A program made the translations under genes and the position numbers. From a virus, in the IMG/VR virus record IMGVR_UViG_3300030450_000902, positions 1-43,860 of that record: DNA of 43,860 bases; one strand, given 5' to 3'. The notes under the pieces were generated by a model. It did no database searches and was not told the origin of the DNA. It saw only the letters and a program-made list of their open reading frames with translations. Shown here one piece after another: positions 19,124 to 37,131 of this stretch; position 1 is the stretch's first letter; each line of letters begins with the position of its first letter.

Positions 19124-19770
19124 TGGCTGAAATAAATCCCCTAGCTTTTGCTGGAAGATCTCTTGACGATACATTAGGTAAGAGATTAACAAATGCTGAT
19201 GCTGCCTCTGCTGCATTACCGACTACTCTTGCTAAACAAACACTTGCTAATCGAGCATCTGCTGCTAGTGACTTATCTAAACTAAGAGGAGTACTTGCAG
19301 CTATTGGAGAAACTCCACAATCAATTGGTTTGGGAGGAGGAGGTCTTGATAGAATACGAAGACGACAAGATCTTAAAACTATGTTGCCTTCAGCAGCAGG
19401 TTTAGGTGCGGTATTTCCTGAAGGGAGAGTAAATATTTCTAATCCATTACTCTTTTCTACAGGAAAAAATCCTAAAATTGAAGCAGCATTTAAAAGTAAT
19501 CCTAAGAATGTTACAACTGCAGAAGAAGTTGTAACACAAGATGATTATGCTATAGGCGGTAAAGATTTAGTAGGAGTACCTAAAAAAAGGACAACCAAAA
19601 AATCTTTTAAAAAAGCACAAACAACAAAAGGTGGAGGATCTAAGTCAGACTCAGCCCTAGTAGAAGATGTTAAGAGAGGTATGCGACAATTTACTTATAA
19701 AGGTAAAAAGTATATAGGCCGAAAATCACCAGATGGTAAAACTATGATAGATGTAATTGCTCTTGATTAA
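19123..19770 (+). CDS. Internal virion protein candidate 3
   Basis: A 215-residue protein coupled by TAATG to both neighbours. The first 90 residues are helical and Ala/Leu-rich; the C-terminal half is Lys-rich (several KK pairs) and ends in a small beta-like segment (FTYKGKKYIGRKSPDGK). The basic tail would suit DNA or membrane contact. Function not known. Confidence 0.6.
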   Translation: MAEINPLAFAGRSLDDTLGKRLTNADAASAALPTTLAKQTLANRASAASDLSKLRGVLAAIGETPQSIGLGGGGLDRIRRRQDLKTMLPSAAGLGAVFPEGRVNISNPLLFSTGKNPKIEAAFKSNPKNVTTAEEVVTQDDYAIGGKDLVGVPKKRTTKKSFKKAQTTKGGGSKSDSALVEDVKRGMRQFTYKGKKYIGRKSPDGKTMIDVIALD

Positions 19771-22700
19771 TGGCTGAAACAATTCCCATAAAAGATGTAG
19801 TCTTTGATGAGCAAAAAGAAGATGTTCCTACATCTATTCCAATAAAAGATGTAACTCTTCAAGCTCCAAAAAGACCTAGTGATCCCGGTAAGCAAGCAAT
19901 TGCTGGTCTTAGTGACATCTTTACAGGTATTCCTCTTGCAACAGGATTTGTTGGACAAGGACTTGAGACATTAGCAGATTATGCTTTAGATGATAATGAT
20001 AAGACTTTTGTAGAAACTTGGGAAGAAGCAGGAAAAGAAGGAATAGATAAAGGTCTTCAGGATATAGGATTAAAGGGAAGAGATCTTACTAATAAGGCTT
20101 TAGGTATTAAGGAAGCACAATCTACTGAAGACCAAGCAGCTAGACTTTTTACTTCAATGATATTTCCCGGATCACTAGGAACTAGTTTATTAGGAAAAGC
20201 TGCTACGTTTCTAACTCCTCTTGTTAGAACTGGAAAAGGATTTACTAAACGTGCAGGAGTTCAATTAGGAATTGGTACTGGTATTGATCAAACAGTACGA
20301 GCTGCTATAGGCGATGAAGAGTTCCCTCTTTTGTTTTCTAAACAGGCATTAACTGGAGAACTTCCAGAAAGAGATTTAGAAGAAGATAAAGATCCTGAAA
20401 AATTTGATACCGAACCTCAGTTTCCTAAAGCACAAAACCTTGGTTCAAGATCTATTCCTATTGAAGAAGTTGAGTTTGTAGATATACCACCAATTCCTAT
20501 AAATGAGGTTGAGTTTACAAGTACAGATCCAAAGTATATTTTAGCAGAAGAAGAGAAAGCATCACAAGATGCAGAGAATTCTAACTTTATAAAGAATATC
20601 GTAATAGGCACAGGAGCAATTGCTCTGTCTATTTTTGGTGCAAAGTATATGGGGAAAGTAAGTAAAGCTAGAGTTGATGAAATGGCTATGTCAGGACTTT
20701 CTCCTACCAATTTAGAATCTTCTGCAACATCAGCTATTAATGAAATTAAAAACATTAGAGAGACACAAGGTAATATTGCTGCAGTTAAAGCTGTAAAAGA
20801 AAAAGCAGCTTCTAGTGTTTCAACTGGAACTAAAAGATTCTTTGGTAATACTTTTGATAAGACTAAACACAATGAAGAAGCATTAAGAGCTGCAGGAGTT
20901 CCAGAAGATGACATTTCAGAATTAAGTGGACAAGAAATAGTAGATGTCTTTGGAGTTGTAGAACAATTCTTAAAAGATGGAAAGATGGGACAAGGATCTA
21001 AGGCTGCTGTTCGATCATTAAAAAGTATTAAGCGTGAATACGATGCATTACCTAAAGAACAACAAAAAGAATTTATAGATGGAATAGGTGCAATTAGAGA
21101 AGATATTATTAGAACAAGAGCAACAGCTTTTGATGTCCTTCGACAATCAGAATCTGAGTTAATGCCCGGAATTACTGGACCGTCAAAACTTAAACAGGCT
21201 TTTGAAAGTGGCACTATTGATGATTTAGAATTAATTCTTAAAGAGCAAGAATCTTTGATTAATAATATTCGAGGAACAGAAGGACCATTAGAAAGAGCTA
21301 AACCGGGATTATGGAAAAGAAATGCTGAAGGCAAACAAGTATTTTATTCTGATGCTATATTAGGAAGTATGATTAAAACCTTCAATAAGAACCCGAACTT
21401 TGTAAGGATGCAAAAAGATTTAGCAAAGATAAATGAAGTAATACTTGATGAAGCTGTTAGGCTTGGAACATTTGATGAAGCTTTTGCTGCAGGATTGAAA
21501 AAGCAATTTACTAAAAATGGCTCTGTTATGTACTTGCCCGGAAAAGAAAATGTTTCTAGAGCTGCATGGTACAAGAGATTAGCAACAAACATGGGCTTTC
21601 ATACTTCGAAAGGAAAGACTCTTAATGAAGTAGGTAACTGGCATCTACAAGGATTAGCAGAAGGAAGTGGTATTGCGAGTCCATTAGATATATTTCAATC
21701 TATGGGTCATTATGCTTTTCAAGTAATGGATCATGTAAATACGTCAGTAAAACAATGGAACTTCTTATCAAGACTTACTGGCCTTCGTATGGTAGATAAT
21801 AAAGTTATAATACCCAAATTAAATGCAACTGATGATGCTACAGTACCAGTAAGGTATGTTGGAAGTTCTAGTATGGATGATCCACTAAATCAGGGAGGAA
21901 ATGTGCGTGTAAACTTCTCTGATGACGCTGAAATTGCTAAAAGATTTGATACAAAAGGTAAAGGTACATTTACTCCTCGACAATTAGCTCAAATGGATGA
22001 TGTTATTTGGGTGCAAAGAGGCAGTACTTATCATGGATTTTTTGTAGCAGACAAACAATTAAAGAAGTCATTAGAGTTTGATGCTGGCTTACATAATAGA
22101 GTATTAAAGTTTGGTAACTTCTGGAAAAATGTATTTACTAAGTTTACTACAGGTAATTTATCTCCATTTGGTATGATATCTTTCTTATACAATAACCAAA
22201 TCAGCTCATTTAATGCTGCATTACAAGCAAGTAAAGGTAAGAATGTTATTGGTACTGTTAAGAATGCCTCAAGAGAAGCATTTGAAACATGGAAAGATAG
22301 TTATAAAGGTGCTTGGGAATTGTTTTCTACTCGTATGTCTGAAGATATCTCTGACATGCTTACAAGATCAATACAAAATAATACTTTGTTATTTAGATCT
22401 AGTCCAGATTTGGTTAGAAAGATGCGTATTCTTACTAAAAGAAAAGTTCGTGACTCTTTGGTAGCTCCTTTACAAAGAGAGACAGGAAGATCTGCATCTG
22501 GTTTAGGTGCTAGTGAGTTTCAAGGTAACTTGACTAATGTATTTGAAGAAGCTGTTCCTTATGTTACTAAAACTAGAGGAGCTGGTGCATTACCACAAAT
22601 GTGGCGTGTCTGGAATCACTTAAATACTGCAATGCAAGAAGGTACAGCTCTTGGCATCACTATGAGAAAAGCACGAGAGTTAGCAGATAAAAATCCTACT

Positions 22701-24152
22701 CAAGCACAGTCACGATTATCTAGAGAAGCCAGAAAAATAGCTAATGATATCGTGGGTGATGTAAGATTAAGAGGATCTAGTGATACTGGAAAAGCTTTTC
22801 ATGCAGTAGTTCCTTTTTCTGGTGCAATGTTGCAAGCATGGTCAACATTAGGTAGGTCTATGAAAAAAGGGGGAGTGCAAAAAACTCTTGGGACTGTTGT
22901 CGCTGCTGTTGGTATTCCTACTGCATTAGAAGTAACATACAACAATACATTAGATGATGAAACAACTTATCCTGATGGAGGTTTTCCTCCTAGACACTGG
23001 ACATACAAACAGTACTTTTGGGAAGGGTTTACTGTTGACCAAAGAAATAATAATCACATATTCTTTGTTCCGGGTAAGCCTCCTTGGGAAGCTGTATTAA
23101 TACCAGTAACTCCTGAGATCAGTTTGTTCAGAGGATTTGTTATTGATGCTTTAGAAACTATAGGAGGATTATCTGATCCTGAATCTGGTTTAGGAGGACA
23201 TAATATAAAGAGGGCAAATCACTTTTTAGCAGGATTAGCTAGAGTTTTTGATATAGCATTGCCTCCTCCAATTGCTGCTGCTGGTTCTGCGTTAGGACTA
23301 GATTTACGAGCTGGTATATTACCAGATGATACAAAAGCTATGGGATTTGGTTTCTTTGAAGGAAGACCAATGCTTACAGGACAAAGAGTTACTGGAGACT
23401 TTGGAAGAACTAAATATGTAGGAGGAGAAGTAGACAAAGAAGTTGCAAATGTTTTGCAAGACATCTTTGGAGCTGCAGGAACATTATCTGTGGGGGTATA
23501 CGAAGCATTTAATGCTGGTAATGAATCTACGCCATTAAACACTAGAATAGAATATGCTACAGATGAGTTAGGAAGAAACATTATGAGGCAAGCAAGGTAT
23601 TTTCAGCCTCTCTTTGGAAAAGCATTACGAAATAATCCTGACCAAAATATAGTAAGGTCTGTGTTAGCACAAAAAGATGCGTTACAAAGATTTAGTAGAG
23701 ATGAACAACTAATGTACTCTGGAGGAGGAATGTCTGGAGACAGACCTATAAGAGGAAATACTGTTGATGCTCCTACAGATCCAGTACATCAAATGTTAAT
23801 CATGCAATCTAAAGATTACTTGAATCAAATAAAACCTATTGGTGATATGATAAGTAAATTACGACAAGATATCGCTACATTGGGAGCTGGAACACAAGAC
23901 CAATTCCAACAAAAAGCGATAACATTAAAAGAAAGAGATGAACTTATTGATAGCTTGAACTTGCAAATTCAATCTCTTAAATCATTAGAATTAACAGCAC
24001 TTGAAACATTTAAAGAACAATTTAAAGAATTTGCACATAAAAATACAGGCAGAGATATGTCAGACTTTAGATTTGAAACTTTCAAACCTAATGTTAATCC
24101 ATCAGGTTCAGTTTCTCCAGCACTTCCGAACTTACCCCGAACTTCTCAATAG
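19770..24152 (+). CDS. Giant internal virion protein (1460 residues) with repeated IPI motifs
   Basis: By far the largest gene. Four copies of a short motif, IPI-[KEN]-[DE]-V, occur at about residues 5-10, 23-28, 229-234 and 242-247, the last two followed by EF. A hydrophobic segment near 270-292 (FIKNIVIGTGAIALSIFG) could cross the membrane. The remainder is helical, and I see no lysozyme or transglycosylase signature. Size and last-gene position fit the largest ejection protein of podoviruses (T7 gp16 type). Its final 59 bases overlap the oppositely directed helicase gene. Confidence 0.7.
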   Translation: MAETIPIKDVVFDEQKEDVPTSIPIKDVTLQAPKRPSDPGKQAIAGLSDIFTGIPLATGFVGQGLETLADYALDDNDKTFVETWEEAGKEGIDKGLQDIGLKGRDLTNKALGIKEAQSTEDQAARLFTSMIFPGSLGTSLLGKAATFLTPLVRTGKGFTKRAGVQLGIGTGIDQTVRAAIGDEEFPLLFSKQALTGELPERDLEEDKDPEKFDTEPQFPKAQNLGSRSIPIEEVEFVDIPPIPINEVEFTSTDPKYILAEEEKASQDAENSNFIKNIVIGTGAIALSIFGAKYMGKVSKARVDEMAMSGLSPTNLESSATSAINEIKNIRETQGNIAAVKAVKEKAASSVSTGTKRFFGNTFDKTKHNEEALRAAGVPEDDISELSGQEIVDVFGVVEQFLKDGKMGQGSKAAVRSLKSIKREYDALPKEQQKEFIDGIGAIREDIIRTRATAFDVLRQSESELMPGITGPSKLKQAFESGTIDDLELILKEQESLINNIRGTEGPLERAKPGLWKRNAEGKQVFYSDAILGSMIKTFNKNPNFVRMQKDLAKINEVILDEAVRLGTFDEAFAAGLKKQFTKNGSVMYLPGKENVSRAAWYKRLATNMGFHTSKGKTLNEVGNWHLQGLAEGSGIASPLDIFQSMGHYAFQVMDHVNTSVKQWNFLSRLTGLRMVDNKVIIPKLNATDDATVPVRYVGSSSMDDPLNQGGNVRVNFSDDAEIAKRFDTKGKGTFTPRQLAQMDDVIWVQRGSTYHGFFVADKQLKKSLEFDAGLHNRVLKFGNFWKNVFTKFTTGNLSPFGMISFLYNNQISSFNAALQASKGKNVIGTVKNASREAFETWKDSYKGAWELFSTRMSEDISDMLTRSIQNNTLLFRSSPDLVRKMRILTKRKVRDSLVAPLQRETGRSASGLGASEFQGNLTNVFEEAVPYVTKTRGAGALPQMWRVWNHLNTAMQEGTALGITMRKARELADKNPTQAQSRLSREARKIANDIVGDVRLRGSSDTGKAFHAVVPFSGAMLQAWSTLGRSMKKGGVQKTLGTVVAAVGIPTALEVTYNNTLDDETTYPDGGFPPRHWTYKQYFWEGFTVDQRNNNHIFFVPGKPPWEAVLIPVTPEISLFRGFVIDALETIGGLSDPESGLGGHNIKRANHFLAGLARVFDIALPPPIAAAGSALGLDLRAGILPDDTKAMGFGFFEGRPMLTGQRVTGDFGRTKYVGGEVDKEVANVLQDIFGAAGTLSVGVYEAFNAGNESTPLNTRIEYATDELGRNIMRQARYFQPLFGKALRNNPDQNIVRSVLAQKDALQRFSRDEQLMYSGGGMSGDRPIRGNTVDAPTDPVHQMLIMQSKDYLNQIKPIGDMISKLRQDIATLGAGTQDQFQQKAITLKERDELIDSLNLQIQSLKSLELTALETFKEQFKEFAHKNTGRDMSDFRFETFKPNVNPSGSVSPALPNLPRTSQ

Positions 24153-25329
24153 CTTTTGTTGCTCTATAGAAAGTACCAGTAGCTTTTCCTGATTTTACTT
24201 TGAAGATTTGAATCATTCCACACTCATGCATGATGTTCATTAACATCTTAAACTCACTGGCATCTAGTTGTCTTTGTACTTTATTATGTAATTCATGATG
24301 TTTGATGCCATCACTTCCTGCACCTAATAAATGATCTCTTACCTTCTCAATACCTCCAACTAACTTTGCTCTGTAGCTGAAGTCTCCTCCGAACAAGGTG
24401 TTTGCACGAGTCTTAACCTCAGAGATAAGCTTACTTCCATGCCCGATGTGCCTACTTTGTATTTCCCTTGTTCCATCGTTAATGGCAAGACAGCTTGCGA
24501 TTCGTAACAAGTGATCGTCTTCTCTAGCTTCAAACCCGGATCTGAAAGGATCTGTGTGACTAGCTCGTGTGTTGTACCAGTTAGTGAATTTTTTAAGTCC
24601 TCCCGGTGAGATGCCAATTCGGGAAACATCTCTTGCTGCTTCAACTGTTTCATTGAATGACTCATATACCTTTCCATGATGATCTTCCTCTCTTTTAACA
24701 GGCCAAGCAATACTACGCTTTCTGTTATCGTCAACAATAAACATCACTCTACTAGTAAACCCACCTTCAATAACACTAGGGTTAATAGCAGTGACTAACC
24801 ATGATGGGGTAGATGCTGATAAGAATGTAACATATACATCCTTCTGTACTAACTCTCCCATCTGCAATGTACCCGGACTTGTTCGTAACTTCTGACAGTC
24901 ATAAAGATCAGTCAATAGACCGGGCATAGTACTCATGTATCCTTCTTTTCCAAGGATTGTGACGAGTTCGCTAATTGCGAAATTCGCTTTAGCAGTTCCA
25001 CCCTCTCGGCATCTGTCATGCAAATAAAGTTCGAGACTTTCCGGGCTTGTTTTTCCGGTAAGTATGGAATCAAATCCTTTAAGAAAAGAAAGTATGCTGC
25101 TAATAGCTGTAGACTTTCTCGTAGTCCCTGCTTCAGCAGCCAAAATAATATACCAATTATGATAAACTGGACTGTTAGGGCGATCCACATATACGTCACG
25201 GCCAACTCCTGTTCCTATTGCCCATAAGGCACACCAAAAATCATAGCTCTCTGCTGTTTCAACATAAGACATATACTCCATGTACTGTCCTATGAATGAG
25301 TCAGCAGGAACTAACTTCTTATAATTCAC
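24094..25329 (-). CDS. DUF3987-like replicative helicase / primase-associated ATPase
   Basis: A 411-residue protein with GTG start, coupled to the previous gene by GTGA. The P-loop is AEAGTTRKST (Lys72, Ser73), a variant of the Walker A motif with Arg where Gly is usual. The segment NFAISELVTILGKEGY could hold the Walker B acidic residue. The C-terminal 100 residues look like a winged-helix fold. The pattern fits the DUF3987 group often found as helicase or primase-helicase in phages. It is next to the DNA polymerase and no other replicative hexameric helicase is seen, so it may unwind DNA at the fork. Confidence 0.65.
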   Translation of the reverse strand: MNYKKLVPADSFIGQYMEYMSYVETAESYDFWCALWAIGTGVGRDVYVDRPNSPVYHNWYIILAAEAGTTRKSTAISSILSFLKGFDSILTGKTSPESLELYLHDRCREGGTAKANFAISELVTILGKEGYMSTMPGLLTDLYDCQKLRTSPGTLQMGELVQKDVYVTFLSASTPSWLVTAINPSVIEGGFTSRVMFIVDDNRKRSIAWPVKREEDHHGKVYESFNETVEAARDVSRIGISPGGLKKFTNWYNTRASHTDPFRSGFEAREDDHLLRIASCLAINDGTREIQSRHIGHGSKLISEVKTRANTLFGGDFSYRAKLVGGIEKVRDHLLGAGSDGIKHHELHNKVQRQLDASEFKMLMNIMHECGMIQIFKVKSGKATGTFYRATKAIEKFGVSSEVLEKLNLMD

Positions 25330-25673: not shown

Positions 25674-28102
25674 CTATGTACTCCTCCTTCATCTGCTACT
25701 GATTGCTTTAGGTCAATACCAATACTTACTTCTTGTCCTCTAATAAGTATTGGAGCCTGTGCATGTTTCTTCATAAGTCGTTGGACGGTGACAGCATCAC
25801 TAGGTTTATGGATGGCAATGAGAGCATCGTGTACGTTGAGTACCATTCTGGCATCGTTAGGCCATTCGGGATCTTCGTGACACAAATAGATGACGCTTGA
25901 TACTTTGTCACCGATTGTACTTTGGGGTACGAAAGCAATAACACTATCAAAACTTTCCTCCGTTAATCTTTCTATCCAAATGAGCCTCCGTCCAAAGGGC
26001 GTGTAGAGCATACGTTCGTCTCGGACAGTTTTAATTGTGGTGTCCCATCCTCTTTGTATTTCAGGGAAAGCCCTATGGTAACTGGCGTATGCTTCGTACC
26101 CTTGTTGAATCGGTATACCACACACTTCTGCAAGCTTGGGTGCTTGCATTCTATAGTTAAGACCGTGTACACATCGCTTTCCAAGATAGCGTTTAGTAGG
26201 GGTGAGATCATCGTTCCAATCTGAGGAGGGGATTGTATCGTAGTCTTCTTTAAATATTCTCGCAGCGTTTCCTCTATGGATATCAAATCCATCTTCATGT
26301 TCTGCCCTTTCAAAGTTTTCAATCAAGCCTTGAACATTCCAAAGGTATGCAACTACTTTAGCTTCTGCTTGTCTTAAATCAAAGTAACTAAACATATAGC
26401 CATCATCACACTTAAACATAGGATATGCTCTATGAGGTTGATTTTGTAAGTTCATCCCAGATCCCCACATAACTTTACTAGAAGATAAACGACCCGGAGC
26501 TGATTGCACACCGAACTGTTTATACTCACATCTAATCCTTCCATCGGGATCTACTTTTTGTGTGGCATATGTACTATAAAATTTATGTTCTTCTTTATAC
26601 TTATCTAGCTTTATTAAAAGTTCACGAGCTTCAGGTGACGTTTTAACATTGTCTTGCATTCTTTTACGGTTTTCTGCATTAGTGCTTGCTCCTCTTCCGA
26701 CCAACCTGAGATAGTTGAAGAACAATTCTGAAAGTTGTTTAGGACTGTTTGGATTTGGGTTAAAGTTTTTATCACCTGTGAGATCGTGGACACGAGAGTG
26801 GAAGTCTGTGAGTCTTTCATTTAACTCCTCCTTTAATTCAACTGCTATCTTATTTTTAAGTTCTATGTCTGCCAAGATTCCTCCAACTTGCATACTAATA
26901 AGATGTGGTTGCAGTCTCATAACATGTTCAAAGAAGAACTTAGATAAGTCTTGGTGTTTTAATTCTTTGCTAAGAGCAGCATGACAGGCCCAAGTGATAC
27001 AACAATCTTTGATGTTGTAATGCCAGAAGTCGTTAATGTTCCCACCTTCACGCCAAGTCTTGCCCTCGTCTTTATAGTAAGGATGATCCGTATATTGAGC
27101 AGTGAGATATCCAAGGTTATGGGGCATCCTTGGGTACAAGGTGTGATGTGCGAGTAGTGTGTCAAACCAAACATTCGGTACATAAATTCTATCCTTATAC
27201 CATAACCAGCCACAGTCAAAGGAACCGTTCTGAGCTATGAATTTATTTTCTTTATTATTAAATAACCTTTGTAGTTCGTATCTAAGTTTAAGCTCTTCGT
27301 CTGTACTAAATCTGTTTGATCTATCATCCCGGAAGTTAATGCAGATTCCAGTGTTAGGGTTGTCGGCCAATCCAATACAGGCGGTTTCATTGGCAATGAT
27401 TTCGATATCAAATGCAATTGGCTGTTTATTTCCACTAAGTCTTTTGATAAATTCGATACTTTCTTCATAACTTGGGTTAATAATTCCACTGACTTTATGC
27501 TGCTTAAACTTTCCATCTATTACTCTCCTAAGTTTTGCTATATCAAACTTGAACATAGGCTCCATAGATAAGTTGCGAAGAATGTGCCCAGGATTATTAG
27601 TTATAATAACCTTTACCTTCCTCTTCTTCCTACCAACTTCACATTCAATGACAGACCCACGCCAATTAGTAATCCCTGACTCTCCTATCAATGCATGTAA
27701 AGCAAAGTTACCGAGAGCCAAGATGTATTTAAGATTAGGTAAGTGATCTAATTCCCATTCAAGTAAGCCTTCCCAATGCTCTAGCTCTGGCTTCTTTACT
27801 GGATTACGAGCATCAGTTTTTGTAGACAATGCTACTTGCTTTTTAACTACATTAGTAACGTAACAATCAGCTCGTGTTATATCTACAGGACGTAACGTAT
27901 CCCATAGTAATCGACCAGCCCCTCCAACAAGAGGCATTGACATTTTACATTCATGTTCTCCGGGAGCTTCAGCTATTACACATATTTCACTGTCAAGTCT
28001 TCCGCTACCCAGACAGTTTACTTCTAATTGGCAAGCTTTAGCACGAGCAGTAAACTCTCTTAATAACCAACCTTCAGTTATTTTCTCCATTGGATCCATC
28101 AT
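25640..28102 (-). CDS. DNA polymerase family A fused to an N-terminal uracil-DNA-glycosylase-like domain
   Basis: An 820-residue protein with three parts. Residues about 15-200 match family-4 UDG: AEAPGEHE near 44, PLVGGAGRLLWD near 56, YVTNVVKKQ near 80, LALGNFALH, and a late NNPGHILRN. The Cys positions for the iron-sulfur cluster seem largely lost. Residues about 225-400 are the 3'-5' exonuclease: FDIE (Asp232, Glu234), QNGSFDCGW and a YNIKDCC motif. The polymerase follows, with motif A FDLRQAE (Asp575, Glu580), O-helix motif B RYLGKRCVHGLNYR (Lys642, His646, Tyr650) and motif C NVHDAL (Asp759). It replicates the phage genome. GGGGAG precedes the start. Confidence 0.92.
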   Translation of the reverse strand: MMDPMEKITEGWLLREFTARAKACQLEVNCLGSGRLDSEICVIAEAPGEHECKMSMPLVGGAGRLLWDTLRPVDITRADCYVTNVVKKQVALSTKTDARNPVKKPELEHWEGLLEWELDHLPNLKYILALGNFALHALIGESGITNWRGSVIECEVGRKKRKVKVIITNNPGHILRNLSMEPMFKFDIAKLRRVIDGKFKQHKVSGIINPSYEESIEFIKRLSGNKQPIAFDIEIIANETACIGLADNPNTGICINFRDDRSNRFSTDEELKLRYELQRLFNNKENKFIAQNGSFDCGWLWYKDRIYVPNVWFDTLLAHHTLYPRMPHNLGYLTAQYTDHPYYKDEGKTWREGGNINDFWHYNIKDCCITWACHAALSKELKHQDLSKFFFEHVMRLQPHLISMQVGGILADIELKNKIAVELKEELNERLTDFHSRVHDLTGDKNFNPNPNSPKQLSELFFNYLRLVGRGASTNAENRKRMQDNVKTSPEARELLIKLDKYKEEHKFYSTYATQKVDPDGRIRCEYKQFGVQSAPGRLSSSKVMWGSGMNLQNQPHRAYPMFKCDDGYMFSYFDLRQAEAKVVAYLWNVQGLIENFERAEHEDGFDIHRGNAARIFKEDYDTIPSSDWNDDLTPTKRYLGKRCVHGLNYRMQAPKLAEVCGIPIQQGYEAYASYHRAFPEIQRGWDTTIKTVRDERMLYTPFGRRLIWIERLTEESFDSVIAFVPQSTIGDKVSSVIYLCHEDPEWPNDARMVLNVHDALIAIHKPSDAVTVQRLMKKHAQAPILIRGQEVSIGIDLKQSVADEGGVHRWSTLTDIKST

Positions 28103-28690: not shown

Positions 28691-28868
28691 TCTCATTCTC
28701 CAACGCATTTTCTTGCAAATACATCTTGCACAATCTTGTTAGTGCATTTGATCTACTTAATTTTAACATTAATTCTTTTTGCATATGTGCTCGAACTATA
28801 TCTACGCAGACCAATTGTTCTAACGAAAATCCAATTACTCTGGCTGCATATTTTGGATTAGATACCAT
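28683..28868 (-). CDS. Small hypothetical protein
   Basis: A 61-residue helical protein. ATG at 28868 overlaps the helicase stop (TGATG), with AAAGGAG 7 bases upstream. Three Cys are spread through it. It is translated between the helicase and KOW-like genes. No family recognised. Confidence 0.6.
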   Translation of the reverse strand: MVSNPKYAARVIGFSLEQLVCVDIVRAHMQKELMLKLSRSNALTRLCKMYLQENALENESE

Positions 28869-30181
28869 CACTTATCTCCTTTCTTGTGTAAGCTAAGATT
28901 AATTGACTGTTGATCTGTAATTATAGACACATGAGTTTTGGCTCTGCTTATCGCTGTATAAAAGTTTTTACGATTAAGAAGAAAAGATCTTGATCTATTC
29001 ATGACGTAGCAAATACGATCATACTCTGATCCTTGACACTTATGTGTTGTAACAACATAAGCTAGATCTAAATCTTTTTGGGGGTTCATATAATATATGC
29101 CATAACGTCCTTGCATTTCTAGAGATACTGGAACAGTCACATCCTTATCTCCAAAGTCTATAGTAATATCTCCACAATCTTTGAAGTCTGTAACAACTCC
29201 TGTCTCTCCATTGAATACCTCTAAAGGATAACAGTTAGTTGTATAAATTACCTTATCTCCTATATACAACCTTTGTTCTTCTATGTTACTCCACTTATGA
29301 CGTTCAACAATTACATGTCTTTTGGAACTTGGTTGGAGTAGTTGTTGGATAGCAGAGTTAAGAGCTTCTGTACCTACCCAACCAACTTTGGTAGGAGATA
29401 TTATTTGATTATTGATTGCTCCATAATCTATCTCCTCTGCCAAATTATCTTGGACGAAATCTAATATAGTTTCTACTGGTGTATCAGTAAATTTAAGGGC
29501 AAAGTCTTCTTTTCGTAAAGGCATTTGACCTTTGATGATTCGTTGTCCATTAGAAATAATGTTACTGTCATTAGCTTGTCTATGAATAGTTTCTAAACTA
29601 ATTCCATCAAACTTATTAAGCATCTTTAAAAAGGACGATGGTTCCCTTTGTATTCTCTTGTTGCTTTCGATGGGTTGAAGCTGGTTAGCATCCCCAAACA
29701 TACGAATAACACCACCATTGGGAAGAGCATCAAGCAAATTCCGATGCACCTCAACTGACACCATAGCGTACTCATCAGCCAAGACAACTTTGTATTCAAT
29801 GGGATTATTCCTATCTTTCTTTGGGTCAGTAGTAACTAACGGTTTCCCTGTCTTATCATCCAGCTCACCGGGATGCGGATACTCCAATAGTCTGTGGATT
29901 GTGCAAGCTGGAATACCTGTTGCTTCAGTAATTCGTTTCGCTGCTTTACCTGTAGGAGCACACAAAACAACTTTGCAACCTTGCTTGTAGAGTTGACGGT
30001 AGACGTTTTGTAAAATAGTGGTCTTACCAGTGCCAGCAGCACCTGTAACAGCAACGATCCGCTTACTAAGATTAACGCAATCATTAACAGCTTTACGTTG
30101 AGTATCATCAAGCTCCATTTCATTACTTGTTGGCGGTATTACCTTTGTTATTTCTTCTCTTTGTTGGTTTAGGTAATTCAC
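28868..30181 (-). CDS. SF1B DNA helicase, RecD/Dda-like
   Basis: A 437-residue helicase that would move 5'-3' on single-stranded DNA. Walker A is GAAGTGKTT, about 50 residues from the start. Motif Ia APTGKAAKRI and motif II VLADEYAMVS follow, then FGDANQLQPI (motif III), a long insertion, and motifs V/VI THKCQGSEYD and YTAISRAK near the end. I take the GTG at 30181 because GGAG stands 9 bases before it; a TTG at 30196 and an ATG at 30118 are alternatives. Its 5' end overlaps the previous gene by 59 bases. Likely used for origin opening or recombination-dependent replication. Confidence 0.9.
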   Translation of the reverse strand: MNYLNQQREEITKVIPPTSNEMELDDTQRKAVNDCVNLSKRIVAVTGAAGTGKTTILQNVYRQLYKQGCKVVLCAPTGKAAKRITEATGIPACTIHRLLEYPHPGELDDKTGKPLVTTDPKKDRNNPIEYKVVLADEYAMVSVEVHRNLLDALPNGGVIRMFGDANQLQPIESNKRIQREPSSFLKMLNKFDGISLETIHRQANDSNIISNGQRIIKGQMPLRKEDFALKFTDTPVETILDFVQDNLAEEIDYGAINNQIISPTKVGWVGTEALNSAIQQLLQPSSKRHVIVERHKWSNIEEQRLYIGDKVIYTTNCYPLEVFNGETGVVTDFKDCGDITIDFGDKDVTVPVSLEMQGRYGIYYMNPQKDLDLAYVVTTHKCQGSEYDRICYVMNRSRSFLLNRKNFYTAISRAKTHVSIITDQQSINLSLHKKGDK

Positions 30182-30446
30182 TTTGTTCTTCTCCAATTGT
30201 CATGCTCGTAGATTTTGTGTCTCTATGCTTCTTGAGATTAGCTGCAACATGGACAGCACACCATCTAGTAAACATGGCTAATGATATTCCGAGGAGATAA
30301 GCCTCATGTTTGATAGCATCGTACTCTTTATTAGTACAACGTACTCTCAGGTTTCCCCCACGCTTTCCTGTGGAATTGACACCGTAGCCTAATTCGAATT
30401 CACTTGGAGTTGGAACTGTTATCTTCAGAGGAGGTTCGTAAGACAT
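30123..30446 (-). CDS. Small DNA-binding-like protein (ribbon-helix-helix / mobilisation-type fold)
   Basis: A 107-residue basic protein. Residues about 32-72 (NLRVRCTNKEYDAIKHEAYL, then GISLAMFTRW) show a beta strand followed by two helices, as in ribbon-helix-helix and mobilisation accessory proteins. The last 35 residues are basic and probably disordered. AAGGAA precedes the ATG. It may be a regulator or a DNA-binding partner of the helicase, whose gene starts inside its 3' end. Confidence 0.6.
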   Translation of the reverse strand: MSYEPPLKITVPTPSEFELGYGVNSTGKRGGNLRVRCTNKEYDAIKHEAYLLGISLAMFTRWCAVHVAANLKKHRDTKSTSMTIGEEQSELPKPTKRRNNKGNTANK

Positions 30447-31505: not shown

Positions 31506-32312
31506 CTAAGGTAGAGGTATCTTCTTTCCTTTATTTTCTACCCAAGTCTCATACCAATTTGCAATTCCTTCGCCTTTCCATGATTCGGGATCGAAAGACC
31601 AAGAGAAGTCACTATTCCCTCCAGTAACAAACATCCGAGATTTCATAGGCTTGCGAAGACGAGAAGAACGGATAGTGATTTTTCTGTCCTTTCCTGTATC
31701 TTGCAAATGCCACACTTCTGATAATTTTATTGGTATCTCCGACTGCATTTTACCACCAACAAGAATGCTAACTTCAGTTGCACCAGTTAGCTCATCTTTT
31801 TGGGGAACATCTTCGTGTGCAATAAAAATAATATGCTTGTTAAGAGCACCTGTAACTCTAATAACTGACATGATTGCTTGCATGGTATAACTATTTCTTC
31901 TTCCATATCCTTGCAAAGTAGGCATTTCCATTGTTGCCCCTCTGACCATACTAACGCCATGCCTAAGAGACATTTCATTAAACGAAGTAATTGAATCAAA
32001 TACCACCGTCTTAATGTCTGGATTTTCATCCAACACTTGCTTGATCCCTCCAGCATTTTCATGTTTGAAAGTCTCCACTTTGTTAGGTGATTCCATACTA
32101 AAGTCAGCAATATAAATATCTTTTTGATCCATTAATGAACTCGTACCATCAGGATCGAAGTTGACCCACAAAATAGGTCGAGGAGCAGTAGCAGCTAGGG
32201 TGGTTTTACCAGCACCAGATGGACCCCAAATAATTGTAGACATTCTCTTTATTTGAGTTTCGGGCGTTGTTACTTCTACTGATCCTAAAGAAATTTTAGG
32301 TGTTGTCGCCAT
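31506..32312 (-). CDS. Sak4-like single-strand annealing recombinase (RecA-fold ATPase)
   Basis: A 268-residue protein. Walker A is GPSGAGKTT (Lys36), Walker B is KTVVFDSITSFNE near 100, and HIIFIAHEDVPQ near 160 fits motif 3 of RecA/RadA folds; GGKMQSEIPIKL near 185 follows. Length and the lone ATPase core match phage Sak4 or AAA_24 proteins, which promote strand annealing or exchange. It sits downstream of a RecB/Cas4-like nuclease and next to a DUF669-like gene, a common phage recombination set. GGAG stands 10 bases before the ATG. Confidence 0.8.
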   Translation of the reverse strand: MATTPKISLGSVEVTTPETQIKRMSTIIWGPSGAGKTTLAATAPRPILWVNFDPDGTSSLMDQKDIYIADFSMESPNKVETFKHENAGGIKQVLDENPDIKTVVFDSITSFNEMSLRHGVSMVRGATMEMPTLQGYGRRNSYTMQAIMSVIRVTGALNKHIIFIAHEDVPQKDELTGATEVSILVGGKMQSEIPIKLSEVWHLQDTGKDRKITIRSSRLRKPMKSRMFVTGGNSDFSWSFDPESWKGEGIANWYETWVENKGKKIPLP

Positions 32313-34273: not shown

Positions 34274-34561
34274 CTATATTTGTTCAATTTCTAATTGCAA
34301 TGCTCTTAACTTTGTCGCTCTTTTTTCTAGATTAGCTGTAGCTCTATCAGCACGACCCAAGTCTTTGTCGAACATCTCCAGAGCTTTTTGCCACTGTGCT
34401 TCTAGTTGCTCCTTACGAGCAGCAGCTTGCATAAGAGTTAACTCTTCATATGCTCTTACAGGAGCTAACCTTCTTTCTCTTATCTTTGTGACTAACAACT
34501 CACGTTCATCTTCACTCATCTTAGTGAGGTCAGCCAAACTTATTGGTGTGTCTGCTTTCAT
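34274..34561 (-). CDS. Helical charged protein
   Basis: A 95-residue protein, nearly all helix with many Arg, Glu and Ala. Its start touches the stop of the oxygenase-like gene (shared base 34561). Possibly an oligomeric or DNA-associated small protein. No family recognised. Confidence 0.65.
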   Translation of the reverse strand: MKADTPISLADLTKMSEDERELLVTKIRERRLAPVRAYEELTLMQAAARKEQLEAQWQKALEMFDKDLGRADRATANLEKRATKLRALQLEIEQI

Positions 34562-35163
34562 TATTTAAAATCCGTATGAAAGTTAATTGAAAAACTTCTA
34601 CGTTCTCCTTCCAACTCTTTGGGCATTGGATATACTGCATGTCGTACTGATGCAGGGAATATATAGAAGTCACCTACACTAGGTATAAGATTCATTTGTG
34701 TAGTAATGAATGGAGCTAACTCACCATAGAACAAAGACAATGCACCACTCTCTCCATTCTTATGAGCTGGTTTACTTAATACTTCTTTAAAGTTGTCAGG
34801 TAATTTAAGATATCCAACAGATGTAATTAAACTTGTTGGATGTACATGATGTGGATTGTATTCTGTATGATCCATAGTACGATTGTACCAAGCGTCTTGT
34901 ACGTCCAAAGATATGTTCGCATTGAAATGTTTGGTGATATAATTTTGTGCTTGTTCTACAAACCAAGTCATTATGTTAGGGCTTAATCTTAGTTCATTCA
35001 TTCTAGCTTGTAACTTTATCTGTCCAATCAACTCCTTACTGTAATCAAATCTATCAAAGTTTTCTGGCATTGTTACAAATTCACAGTCAGCATTCAATTC
35101 ATCTACCATATCTTCTGGCATCTTCATGCCAACAATCGTAGGTCCAAATGGTTTTTGTTCCAT
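34561..35163 (-). CDS. Putative 2OG-Fe(II) oxygenase
   Basis: A 200-residue protein (start at ATG 35163, with GAGG 9 bases upstream; an ATG at 35172 sits too close to it). The C-terminal half has HHVHPTSLITSVGYL, which holds the first metal His, then VGDFYIFPASVRHAVYP with the distal His, and ERRSFSINF with the Arg that binds 2-oxoglutarate. This is the order of the phage 2OG-FeII_Oxy family, which hydroxylates proteins or nucleic acids. Substrate unknown. The HxH form rather than HxD is as in this family. Confidence 0.75.
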   Translation of the reverse strand: MEQKPFGPTIVGMKMPEDMVDELNADCEFVTMPENFDRFDYSKELIGQIKLQARMNELRLSPNIMTWFVEQAQNYITKHFNANISLDVQDAWYNRTMDHTEYNPHHVHPTSLITSVGYLKLPDNFKEVLSKPAHKNGESGALSLFYGELAPFITTQMNLIPSVGDFYIFPASVRHAVYPMPKELEGERRSFSINFHTDFK

Positions 35164-35164
35164 G

Positions 35165-35647
35165 CTATTCATCCTCTACAGGTTTTACATCGTAGTATGT
35201 ATTACCCTTCTTAGGTTTCGTAGAAGCTTTTACCGCATCATCTACGACAGCTTTTTCCACACCAGCACGAGCAAGATTGTTTAGTACATCAGTCAATGCC
35301 ACATTTTCGCCATCTTTGTTTTGGCGTTTAGTAAATACAAATGATCCATTGTCATGTAACACAAGTGTTTTGTTAGCAATGCCAGTTGGATCTACACCTA
35401 ATGCATCAGCACCAGAATCTAATGCTCGTTTAGATGTGTCGAATAGTTTCTTGTACTTACTATTGATTGCTGAATAAATTATGTAGTTGACCATTGCATT
35501 ATGCATGTCAGCTTCTTTGTTTACTTGTTCATTATCTTGGCTATCACTTTGAAACATTCTAAATAAATCTAAAGAATGATTATGTATGACATCGTTAATA
35601 TCATCTTGCATCTTACCAATAATGGTTGCTAGTTCATGTGCTTTCAT
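35165..35647 (-). CDS. Hypothetical protein
   Basis: A 160-residue acidic protein, helical in its first 90 residues and ending in a Lys-rich, probably disordered part. Coupled to the upstream gene by TAATG and one base short of the oxygenase start. May be a regulator or partner of the oxygenase. No family recognised. Confidence 0.65.
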   Translation of the reverse strand: MKAHELATIIGKMQDDINDVIHNHSLDLFRMFQSDSQDNEQVNKEADMHNAMVNYIIYSAINSKYKKLFDTSKRALDSGADALGVDPTGIANKTLVLHDNGSFVFTKRQNKDGENVALTDVLNNLARAGVEKAVVDDAVKASTKPKKGNTYYDVKPVEDE

Positions 35648-35949: not shown

Positions 35950-36150
35950 CTATTTAATGGTTTGCTTCTGTTGTTGCTCTAATAAGTAATCAATTGCTTT
36001 ATTATTCTCTTTTATTTGTTTCTCTAATTTTCTCACCCGATATTCAGAGTTGATAGCACTACCAGCTCCTGCAAGTGGTAAAGCAAACGAACAACCGCAG
36101 AGTATTACCACACAAAGACCAACAATAAGTAATAGATTTGCTTGATTCAT
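35950..36150 (-). CDS. Small membrane or lipoprotein-like protein
   Basis: A 66-residue protein starting in TAATG overlap with the DUF932-like gene. Residues 5-30 are hydrophobic and include LCGCS, which could be a lipobox-like site (LCGC), although the motif is not perfect. A charged coiled-coil tail with many Gln follows. It would sit at the inner membrane. Possible lysis or exclusion role; unproven. Confidence 0.6.
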   Translation of the reverse strand: MNQANLLLIVGLCVVILCGCSFALPLAGAGSAINSEYRVRKLEKQIKENNKAIDYLLEQQQKQTIK

Positions 36151-37067
36151 TATGCAGCAATTTCCATGAACTCATCAGAGCTTATCCAAGATCTAACTTG
36201 TTGCTCTCTGTTCATGAGTGTTGATGCTTTATGATCGCTTTCAGTCTCTCGTATGGAGAATTCCCCTGAATCCGTGCTCGAATAGAACGTAGCTGCCGAG
36301 TATAACGCCCACACGGTACGTCCATGTGTATGGCACTCAATGCGGAATTGTCGCATGAGTTGTTGCACTCTACGTTCTGATACATTGGGCATTGCCTCGA
36401 AACACTTTTCAGCTTCTTCATCACTTATTTCCTTACCTACCCAATGACTCCATTGTTCTGCTTGTTTATAAAATATATCAACTGATGCTCTTAATCTGTC
36501 TGTTAACTTAGGAACTGTAAGCCCAGATGTATGTCGTTTGACAATCATATCATATGATCCTGTAACCATTCCATTTGTACAGAAGAAGTCAATTGCTCCG
36601 TGGTAAAACTTGAACGAGGATGAACCATCATACCCATTAATAATGATAGTTCGAAAGGCAATATCGGAGTGTCTGGACCCGATATCTGCACTAATGTTCG
36701 GGAAGATGTAATTTCTGATAGTTGTAGCTCCCAAGTATGATATTGAATCGGTTCTTCGCACATTGTCTAGTTCCTCATCTGACATAACTTCCATGAATGT
36801 ATCTTCTACTCCCTCACAGACATCCTTTGTGTGCAGTACCTTATAATTCTTTCCAACAACACCTAGACTATGAGGATAACCACTCCATTCTCTTACGATA
36901 TGCTTATGACTAGGATCTTCATAAAAATTATCGGTTCCTTTAAAGTAGCACGGTCTTTCCCATACAGGAAAGTATAAACTAGACTCATCACTAAATACTT
37001 CAGGCTTACTTCTTGTCTCATACTCGTTGTTGTTTGTTATTGGATGTAGTTGTGTAATGTTATTCAT
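36150..37067 (-). CDS. DUF932-like protein
   Basis: A 305-residue protein. I take ATG at 37067 because AAGGAGG stands 7 bases upstream. The core (about 140-190, FRTIIINGYDGSSSFKFYHG then FFCTNGMV and a later HTSGL) matches the DUF932 family found in phages and plasmids. The function of that family is not known. It is the first gene after the promoter-palindrome at 37103-37131, so it may be the start of a controlled unit. Confidence 0.75.
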   Translation of the reverse strand: MNNITQLHPITNNNEYETRSKPEVFSDESSLYFPVWERPCYFKGTDNFYEDPSHKHIVREWSGYPHSLGVVGKNYKVLHTKDVCEGVEDTFMEVMSDEELDNVRRTDSISYLGATTIRNYIFPNISADIGSRHSDIAFRTIIINGYDGSSSFKFYHGAIDFFCTNGMVTGSYDMIVKRHTSGLTVPKLTDRLRASVDIFYKQAEQWSHWVGKEISDEEAEKCFEAMPNVSERRVQQLMRQFRIECHTHGRTVWALYSAATFYSSTDSGEFSIRETESDHKASTLMNREQQVRSWISSDEFMEIAA

Positions 37068-37102
37068 TAAAACCTCCTTGTCCTTTATTGGATCAATGAT
37101 TG

Positions 37103-37131
37103 TTTGTACCATTATGGTACTTGTGTGTCAA
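37103..37131 (-). promoter_or_regulatory. Promoter with palindromic operator in its spacer
   Basis: On the minus strand, TTGACA (37131-37126) is followed after 17 bases by TACAAA (37108-37103). The spacer and -10 edge hold a perfect 15-base palindrome, GTACCAT-T-ATGGTAC (37106-37120). A protein bound there would block RNA polymerase. The unit drives the DUF932-like gene. The -35 is part of the shared TTGACACACAA motif. Confidence 0.6.

Follow-up and report, generated by a model that had tools for sequence, protein, structure and literature searches.

Polymerase gene and genomic context

The window, i.e., the whole stretch of 43,860 nucleotides of viral DNA analyzed here, carries a minus-strand gene for a DNA polymerase in which a uracil-DNA glycosylase (UDG)-like domain, a 3'-5' exonuclease domain and a family A polymerase (PolA) domain are fused (Table 1). 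This polA gene is flanked downstream by a primase-like gene, whose place is taken by a DUF3987 gene in the Microcystis phage, and upstream by a helicase gene. Other features of the window include a gene for a Sak4-like annealing protein near that for a DUF932 protein, a 2OG-Fe(II) oxygenase gene, and a long open reading frame (ORF) that faces the replication genes and overlaps the 3' end of the primase-like gene.

Table 1. Features of the window discussed in the text (E. coli PolA numbering where indicated)
Feature	Position	Strand	Basis
1460-aa ORF; overlap with primase-like gene at 24094..24152	19770..24152	+	
Primase-like gene downstream of polA	24094..25329	-	PHROG match (phrog_14296)
UDG-exonuclease-PolA fusion polymerase, 820 aa	25640..28102	-	ORF; Pfam domains; phrog_17 DNA polymerase, E=2.5e-87
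Family A polymerase domain, aa 421-781	25760..26842	-	Pfam PF00476 DNA_pol_A, E=3.7e-34
Motif C, His758-Asp759 = E. coli H881-D882	25826..25831	-	Alignment
AFVPQ (A723..Q727): Ala at 845, Pro at 848, Gln849 retained	25922..25936	-	Alignment
Motif B / O helix, R638-R651 (RYLGKRCVHGLNYR)	26150..26191	-	Alignment; predicted helix 637-648
Asn649 codon = E. coli I765; co-varies with His762	26156..26158	-	Alignment; column comparison
His646 codon CAC = E. coli F762	26165..26167	-	Alignment; codon reading
Motif A, from D575 (= catalytic Asp705) to E580 (= ribose gate Glu710; Glu retained in window phage)	26363..26380	-	Alignment
3'-5' exonuclease domain, aa 214-382	26957..27463	-	Pfam PF01612
N-terminal UDG-like domain, aa 32-180; Asn (N170, TNNPGHILRN) at the position of the motif-B His	27563..28009	-	Pfam PF03167; alignment to TM0511 1vk2 (HPSYLLRN)
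RecD/Dda-like SF1 helicase upstream of polA	28868..30196	-	Pfam and PHROG matches
Sak4-like annealing protein	31506..32312		
2OG-Fe(II) oxygenase	34561..35172	-	phrog_81
DUF932 protein	36150..37112	-	

The O-helix stretch of the polymerase reads TKRYLGKRCVHGLNYRMQAPKLAEV, in agreement with the first-pass annotation. A MAFFT alignment that took in E. coli PolA, T7 gp5, a T5-like polymerase and other phage enzymes pairs R638, K642, H646 and Y650 with E. coli R754, K758, F762 and Y766, and D575, E580, Q727 and H758/D759 with D705, E710, Q849 and H881/D882. There are no gaps between 758 and 766, and the spacing of eight residues from Lys to Tyr equals that of E. coli, Taq and T7. The same register for H646 was obtained independently of MAFFT by phmmer against Taq structures, and a profile alignment concurs. 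The first-pass annotation had placed His646 at the F762 position and had set this against Phe, Tyr or Leu at the site; the three alignments bear out the placement and exclude those residues.

Membership in family A is supported by the DNA_pol_A domain together with the equivalents of D705/D882, K758, R754 and Y766, all of which are present. In an AlphaFold2 model, residues 637-648 form a single helix (moderate confidence), and Foldseek pairs the chain with Klenow and Bst polymerases at good E-values and low whole-chain TM-scores. At the level of this model, which is globally weak (pTM 0.52; whole-chain TM ~0.26 to Klenow), the PolA fold is confirmed by AlphaFold and Foldseek.

Position 762 in surveys of viral polymerases

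Position 762 (Tyr526 in T7) determines dideoxynucleotide (ddNTP) discrimination and serves as a marker for classifying viral polymerases and guessing phage lifestyle, with Phe and Tyr read as lytic and Leu as temperate. In Keown et al. 2022 (PMC9069017), only sequences with Phe, Leu or Tyr at 762 were kept, so that His762 could not be seen by design. Nasko et al. 2018 (PMC6302109) examined 2,095 hybrid-assembly PolA peptides, among which the Phe, Tyr and Leu counts total 2,045 and, by our own subtraction, 50 are left over. No report of His762 was found in the literature searched on viral PolA, a scope outside which the founding Schmidt 2014 paper falls. The window polymerase, with His646 at 762, therefore lies outside the Phe762, Tyr762 and Leu762 types of virioplankton surveys, and the survey papers agree with the earlier claim that marine studies treat these three residues only. 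The accompanying interpretation of His as an unusual state is partly supported: its effect is still not predictable from Phe/Tyr/Leu data, but it is no isolated oddity, since His762 is fixed throughout a large polymerase clade as well as in one or more further lineages, and known cultured phages have it.

Distribution and origins of His762

IMG/VR scans with the window protein and with an alignment of its relatives revealed His762 in all 80 scorable close relatives (45-79% identical), encoded by CAC in 49 and by CAT in 31. Because the residue is invariant in 80/80 sequences with both codons in use, it is held by selection rather than being a product of sequencing error or chance. Among distant relatives with cultured or complete genomes, His762 is also found in Desulfofustis LS06, Manatee Spring ctMlz233, Microcystis Mel-JY34 and Caulobacter Kuura. 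In addition, it is present in Pseudomonas phage Ph_15, whose polymerase is ~99% identical in PaP2, 119X and PaMx phages, as well as in Polaromonas Tiera, Actinoplanes phiAsp2, Streptomyces TP1604 and JustBecause, Microbacterium WaterT and the M. abscessus prophage GD43A-4. The state occurs both in a named prophage (GD43A-4) and in lytic-type phages such as PaP2. L215, a contig assigned to a Nanohaloarchaea MAG, bears a phage-type His762 UDG-PolA and is probably a viral contig within that bin.

The DNA pattern R..[GA]K...HG.NYG matched at least 120 IMG/VR loci, and the matches listed included 117 scorable family A polymerases with His762, all preselected by the pattern for Asn765 and Gly767. 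Codon patterns identical except for the 762 codon returned 0 loci for His, 57 for Tyr (complete) and at least 120 for Phe in IMG/VR, and all scored loci of the Tyr and Phe sets proved to be genuine polymerases. Since the chosen Arg, Ala and Gly codons are rare in His-type genes (expected joint fraction 0.0046), the zero for His sets only an upper bound of roughly 650 such loci in IMG/VR. Codon patterns leaving out position 762, designed to be unbiased, gave chiefly chance matches in IMG/VR, with ten polymerases and 0 His, and provide no frequency estimate. His762 is a minority state among viral PolA.

Phylogenetic trees were built without columns 762, 765 and 845 and, in later trees, also without 710. 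The window polymerase falls inside an all-His clade (99 SH-aLRT; 98/95 in a later tree; 99/97 under the C20 mixture), the actinophage His clade with Gly848 and Asp710 is placed elsewhere in the tree (support 100/100), and the His loci L204 and L186 are nested among Tyr762 enzymes (support 100/100). A single His762 clade is rejected by the AU test (p=0.001), and once long branches are left out of the mixture tree, its supported branches require three changes at 762. These topologies place His762 in two separate lineages at the least, and probably in three; a single origin is disfavored by the AU test and the mixture tree, and a gain followed by losses is a less likely alternative.

Residues that accompany His762

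A column comparison of 127 dereplicated polymerase domains (71 His and 56 Phe/Tyr/Leu) indicated that, after 762 itself, the most divergent positions are 765 (Asn), 848 (Pro/Gly versus Ile/Leu/Val), 714 (Val) and 845 (Ala/Ser versus Asn). All of the approximately 90 His sequences not preselected for Asn765 have Asn or Ser at this position, Ser in only two. Asn845 occurs in 116/116 Phe and 55/57 Tyr scorable loci (171/173), and Ala or Ser in 205/207 His loci. Similarly, Glu710 is present in 119/119 Phe and 57/57 Tyr loci, and Asp replaces it in 77/206 His versus 0/176 Phe/Tyr loci; the search pattern imposed no selection on 845 or 710 in the Phe and Tyr loci. These comparisons suggest that His762 does not act alone, with 765, 845 and 848 shifting alongside.

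The replacement of the ribose gate Glu710 by Asp was observed in L012, L013, L407-L411 and about 70 other His loci belonging to two separate His762 lineages, and the trees require two origins of Asp710, both within His clades. According to PMC4882331, Glu710 and Tyr766 are conserved without exception across the family, a statement that, as regards Glu710, the Asp710 His762 enzymes contradict.

Taken together, the window protein probably serves a tailed phage as a working replicative polymerase of family A, with a co-evolved, lineage-fixed alternative dNTP pocket. This reading draws on direct observations, namely the residues themselves, their invariance under purifying selection, their co-occurrence, their repeated appearance in distinct lineages and the intact state of the catalytic core. 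The order of events may be hinted at by Arthrobacter phage Gorgeous and locus L321, which combine Tyr762 with Ser/Gly765, Ala845 and Pro848, and by locus L480, which combines Phe762 with Ala765 and Pro848. These enzymes look like intermediates, and second-shell changes may come first and then permit His762.

The same Tyr762 relatives lend some weight to compensated drift, whereby His762 would have appeared by chance in lineages already altered at 765, 845 and 848, with no distinct function and with Phe- or Tyr-like behavior, the background merely tolerating His. An independent-pairs test found two independent contrasts on supported branches, below what significance needs and insufficient for a test of drift; the covariation is therefore not significant after correction for ancestry, and much of it could reflect shared ancestry. 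However, His is kept without exception across highly diverged sequences and has appeared in two or three lineages, and Asp710 arises twice, exclusively with His. Drift is thus considered unlikely, while being the strongest competitor of the co-evolved pocket.

UDG domain and its fusion

The UDG-like domain of the window protein passes the superfamily-level Pfam UDG threshold (52.9 versus 24.3) but does not reach the cut-off for family 4 UDG (TIGR00758, 69 bits versus 125). The motif-B His of family 4 (HPxxLLR) is missing from the window protein and its relatives, which have Asn instead, and in this family the domain may have lost some of its glycosylase strength or may serve to sense uracil. 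UDG is fused in 79/79 window-family members and in several other His polymerases. It is also fused to Phe762 polymerases (SPO1-like SBSphiC, PMBT14, L015 and 10/84 pattern loci), and the PaP2-type and actinophage His762 enzymes are devoid of it. A link between His762 and the UDG fusion, as suggested in the first-pass annotation, is consequently not specific, and His762 as a by-product of the fusion was rejected because each occurs without the other. In Caulobacter phage Kuura (L014), the match to the window UDG-PolA is split across Kuura_029 and Kuura_026, a natural unfused arrangement.

The fusion within the window clade could also be explained by a pocket specialized for non-standard nucleotides, in modified or uracil-containing DNA. 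The phage-encoded 2OG-Fe(II) oxygenase would fit such a role, and phage PolA can alter base preference, as DpoZ does (PMC8599892). A DpoZ/aminoadenine DNA link was nevertheless rejected, since phiVC8 DpoZ carries Leu762 rather than His; the window protein also scores far below the cut-off of the DpoZ profile (NF038380, 42 bits versus 500). Residue 762 touches the sugar and phosphate rather than the base, the distribution of UDG runs across Phe762 and His762 enzymes alike, and no base-modification gene was found among the ORFs covered by a non-exhaustive scan. Specialization for non-standard nucleotides is accordingly regarded as very improbable.

Proposed nucleotide pocket

Inactivity fares worse still: apart from divergence from model enzymes, nothing favors a degenerate polymerase with 762 free of constraint, and this is extremely improbable because the catalytic and dNTP-binding residues are all retained and the site is invariant with synonymous codon change. 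The chance that another residue is the true 762 equivalent is negligible given the conserved spacing and concordant alignments, and artefact or sequencing error behind His646 is rejected by this agreement and by the mixed CAC/CAT codons of relatives.

In the co-evolved pocket, the layout would comprise His762, Asn (seldom Ser) 765, Ala/Ser845 and Pro/Gly848 where other enzymes have Phe/Tyr/Leu, Ile/Leu, Asn and Ile/Leu/Val, respectively. The imidazole of His762 would pack on the deoxyribose as the Phe/Tyr ring does elsewhere. The beta-phosphate is reached in T7 by the hydroxyl of Tyr526 as well as by the 3'-OH of the incoming nucleotide (PMC3997047), and the N-H of His762 might also donate a hydrogen bond there, mimicking the Tyr526 hydroxyl; by analogy with T7, such a contact is possible rather than likely. 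Asn765, three residues further and hence one turn along on the same helix face, would steady His762. Palm residue Asn845 is a checker of terminal base-pair shape in Klenow, where N845A reduces selectivity (PMC3347538), and this function would have been abandoned in His762 enzymes, with Pro/Gly848 remodeling the neighboring, facing Q helix of the palm. The predicted phenotype is ddNTP discrimination intermediate between the Phe and Tyr types, and ribose selection would be altered further in His lineages with Asp710.

More broadly, the combination His762-N/S765-A/S845-P/G848 can be put forward, with confidence somewhat short of likely, as a fourth, recurrently evolved active-site class of viral PolA that 762-based surveys filter out or leave unreported, with a different mechanism of sugar/phosphate selection and with the Glu710 ribose gate relaxed to Asp in some lineages. 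At least one pipeline keeps Phe, Leu and Tyr only, and given a fourth state at 762 that is fixed and recurrent, some of the diversity of phage PolA is lost by design. Natural enzymes with Asp710, or with Ala845, which lowers selectivity in Klenow, offer ready tests of how the nucleotide pocket is constructed, and might also yield polymerases that handle ddNTPs, rNTPs or analogues in new ways. As judged from sequence comparison, a co-evolved His762 active site in phage polymerases appears new relative to the literature searched, and its catalytic effect is a prediction.

Comparison with known systems

T7 gp5 resembles the window polymerase in being a replicative phage enzyme with a polar, hydrogen-bond-capable ring at 762 (Tyr526), but it has Tyr762, Leu765 and Asn845, and no UDG domain was found in it. 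The SPO1-like UDG-PolA of Bacillus phage SBSphiC shares the UDG-like N-terminus on a family A polymerase, whereas it has Phe762, Leu765, Asn845 and degraded UDG motifs.

The actinophage enzymes (phiAsp2 pas55, Streptomyces TP1604 and M. abscessus prophage GD43A-4) share His762, Asn/Ser765 and Ala845 with the window polymerase and differ in forming a separate clade with Gly848, Asp710 and no UDG. The phiAsp2 polymerase is the C-terminal part of a 1415-aa protein, and the His762 domain is likewise C-terminal in very long proteins (about 1,400-1,550 aa) at L407, L117 and other actinophage-type loci; in TP1604, primase and polymerase are separate adjacent genes.

The polymerase of the cultured Pseudomonas phages PaP2, 119X and PaMx41 (Ph_15, L019), annotated merely as DNA polymerase I, has His762, Asn765 and Ala845 as in the window, but is only ~21% identical, is without a UDG domain and has Y734 and N754 replacing His and Arg. 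A PDB sequence search found no close solved relative of this PaP2-type polymerase. The full architecture of the window protein is matched by Desulfofustis LS06, Microcystis Mel-JY34 and Manatee Spring ctMlz233 (26-29% identity); Mel-JY34 and ctMlz233 differ from it in having Asp710 and retaining the UDG HP motif, whereas all three share with it the UDG-exonuclease-PolA fusion together with His762, Asn765 and Ala845.
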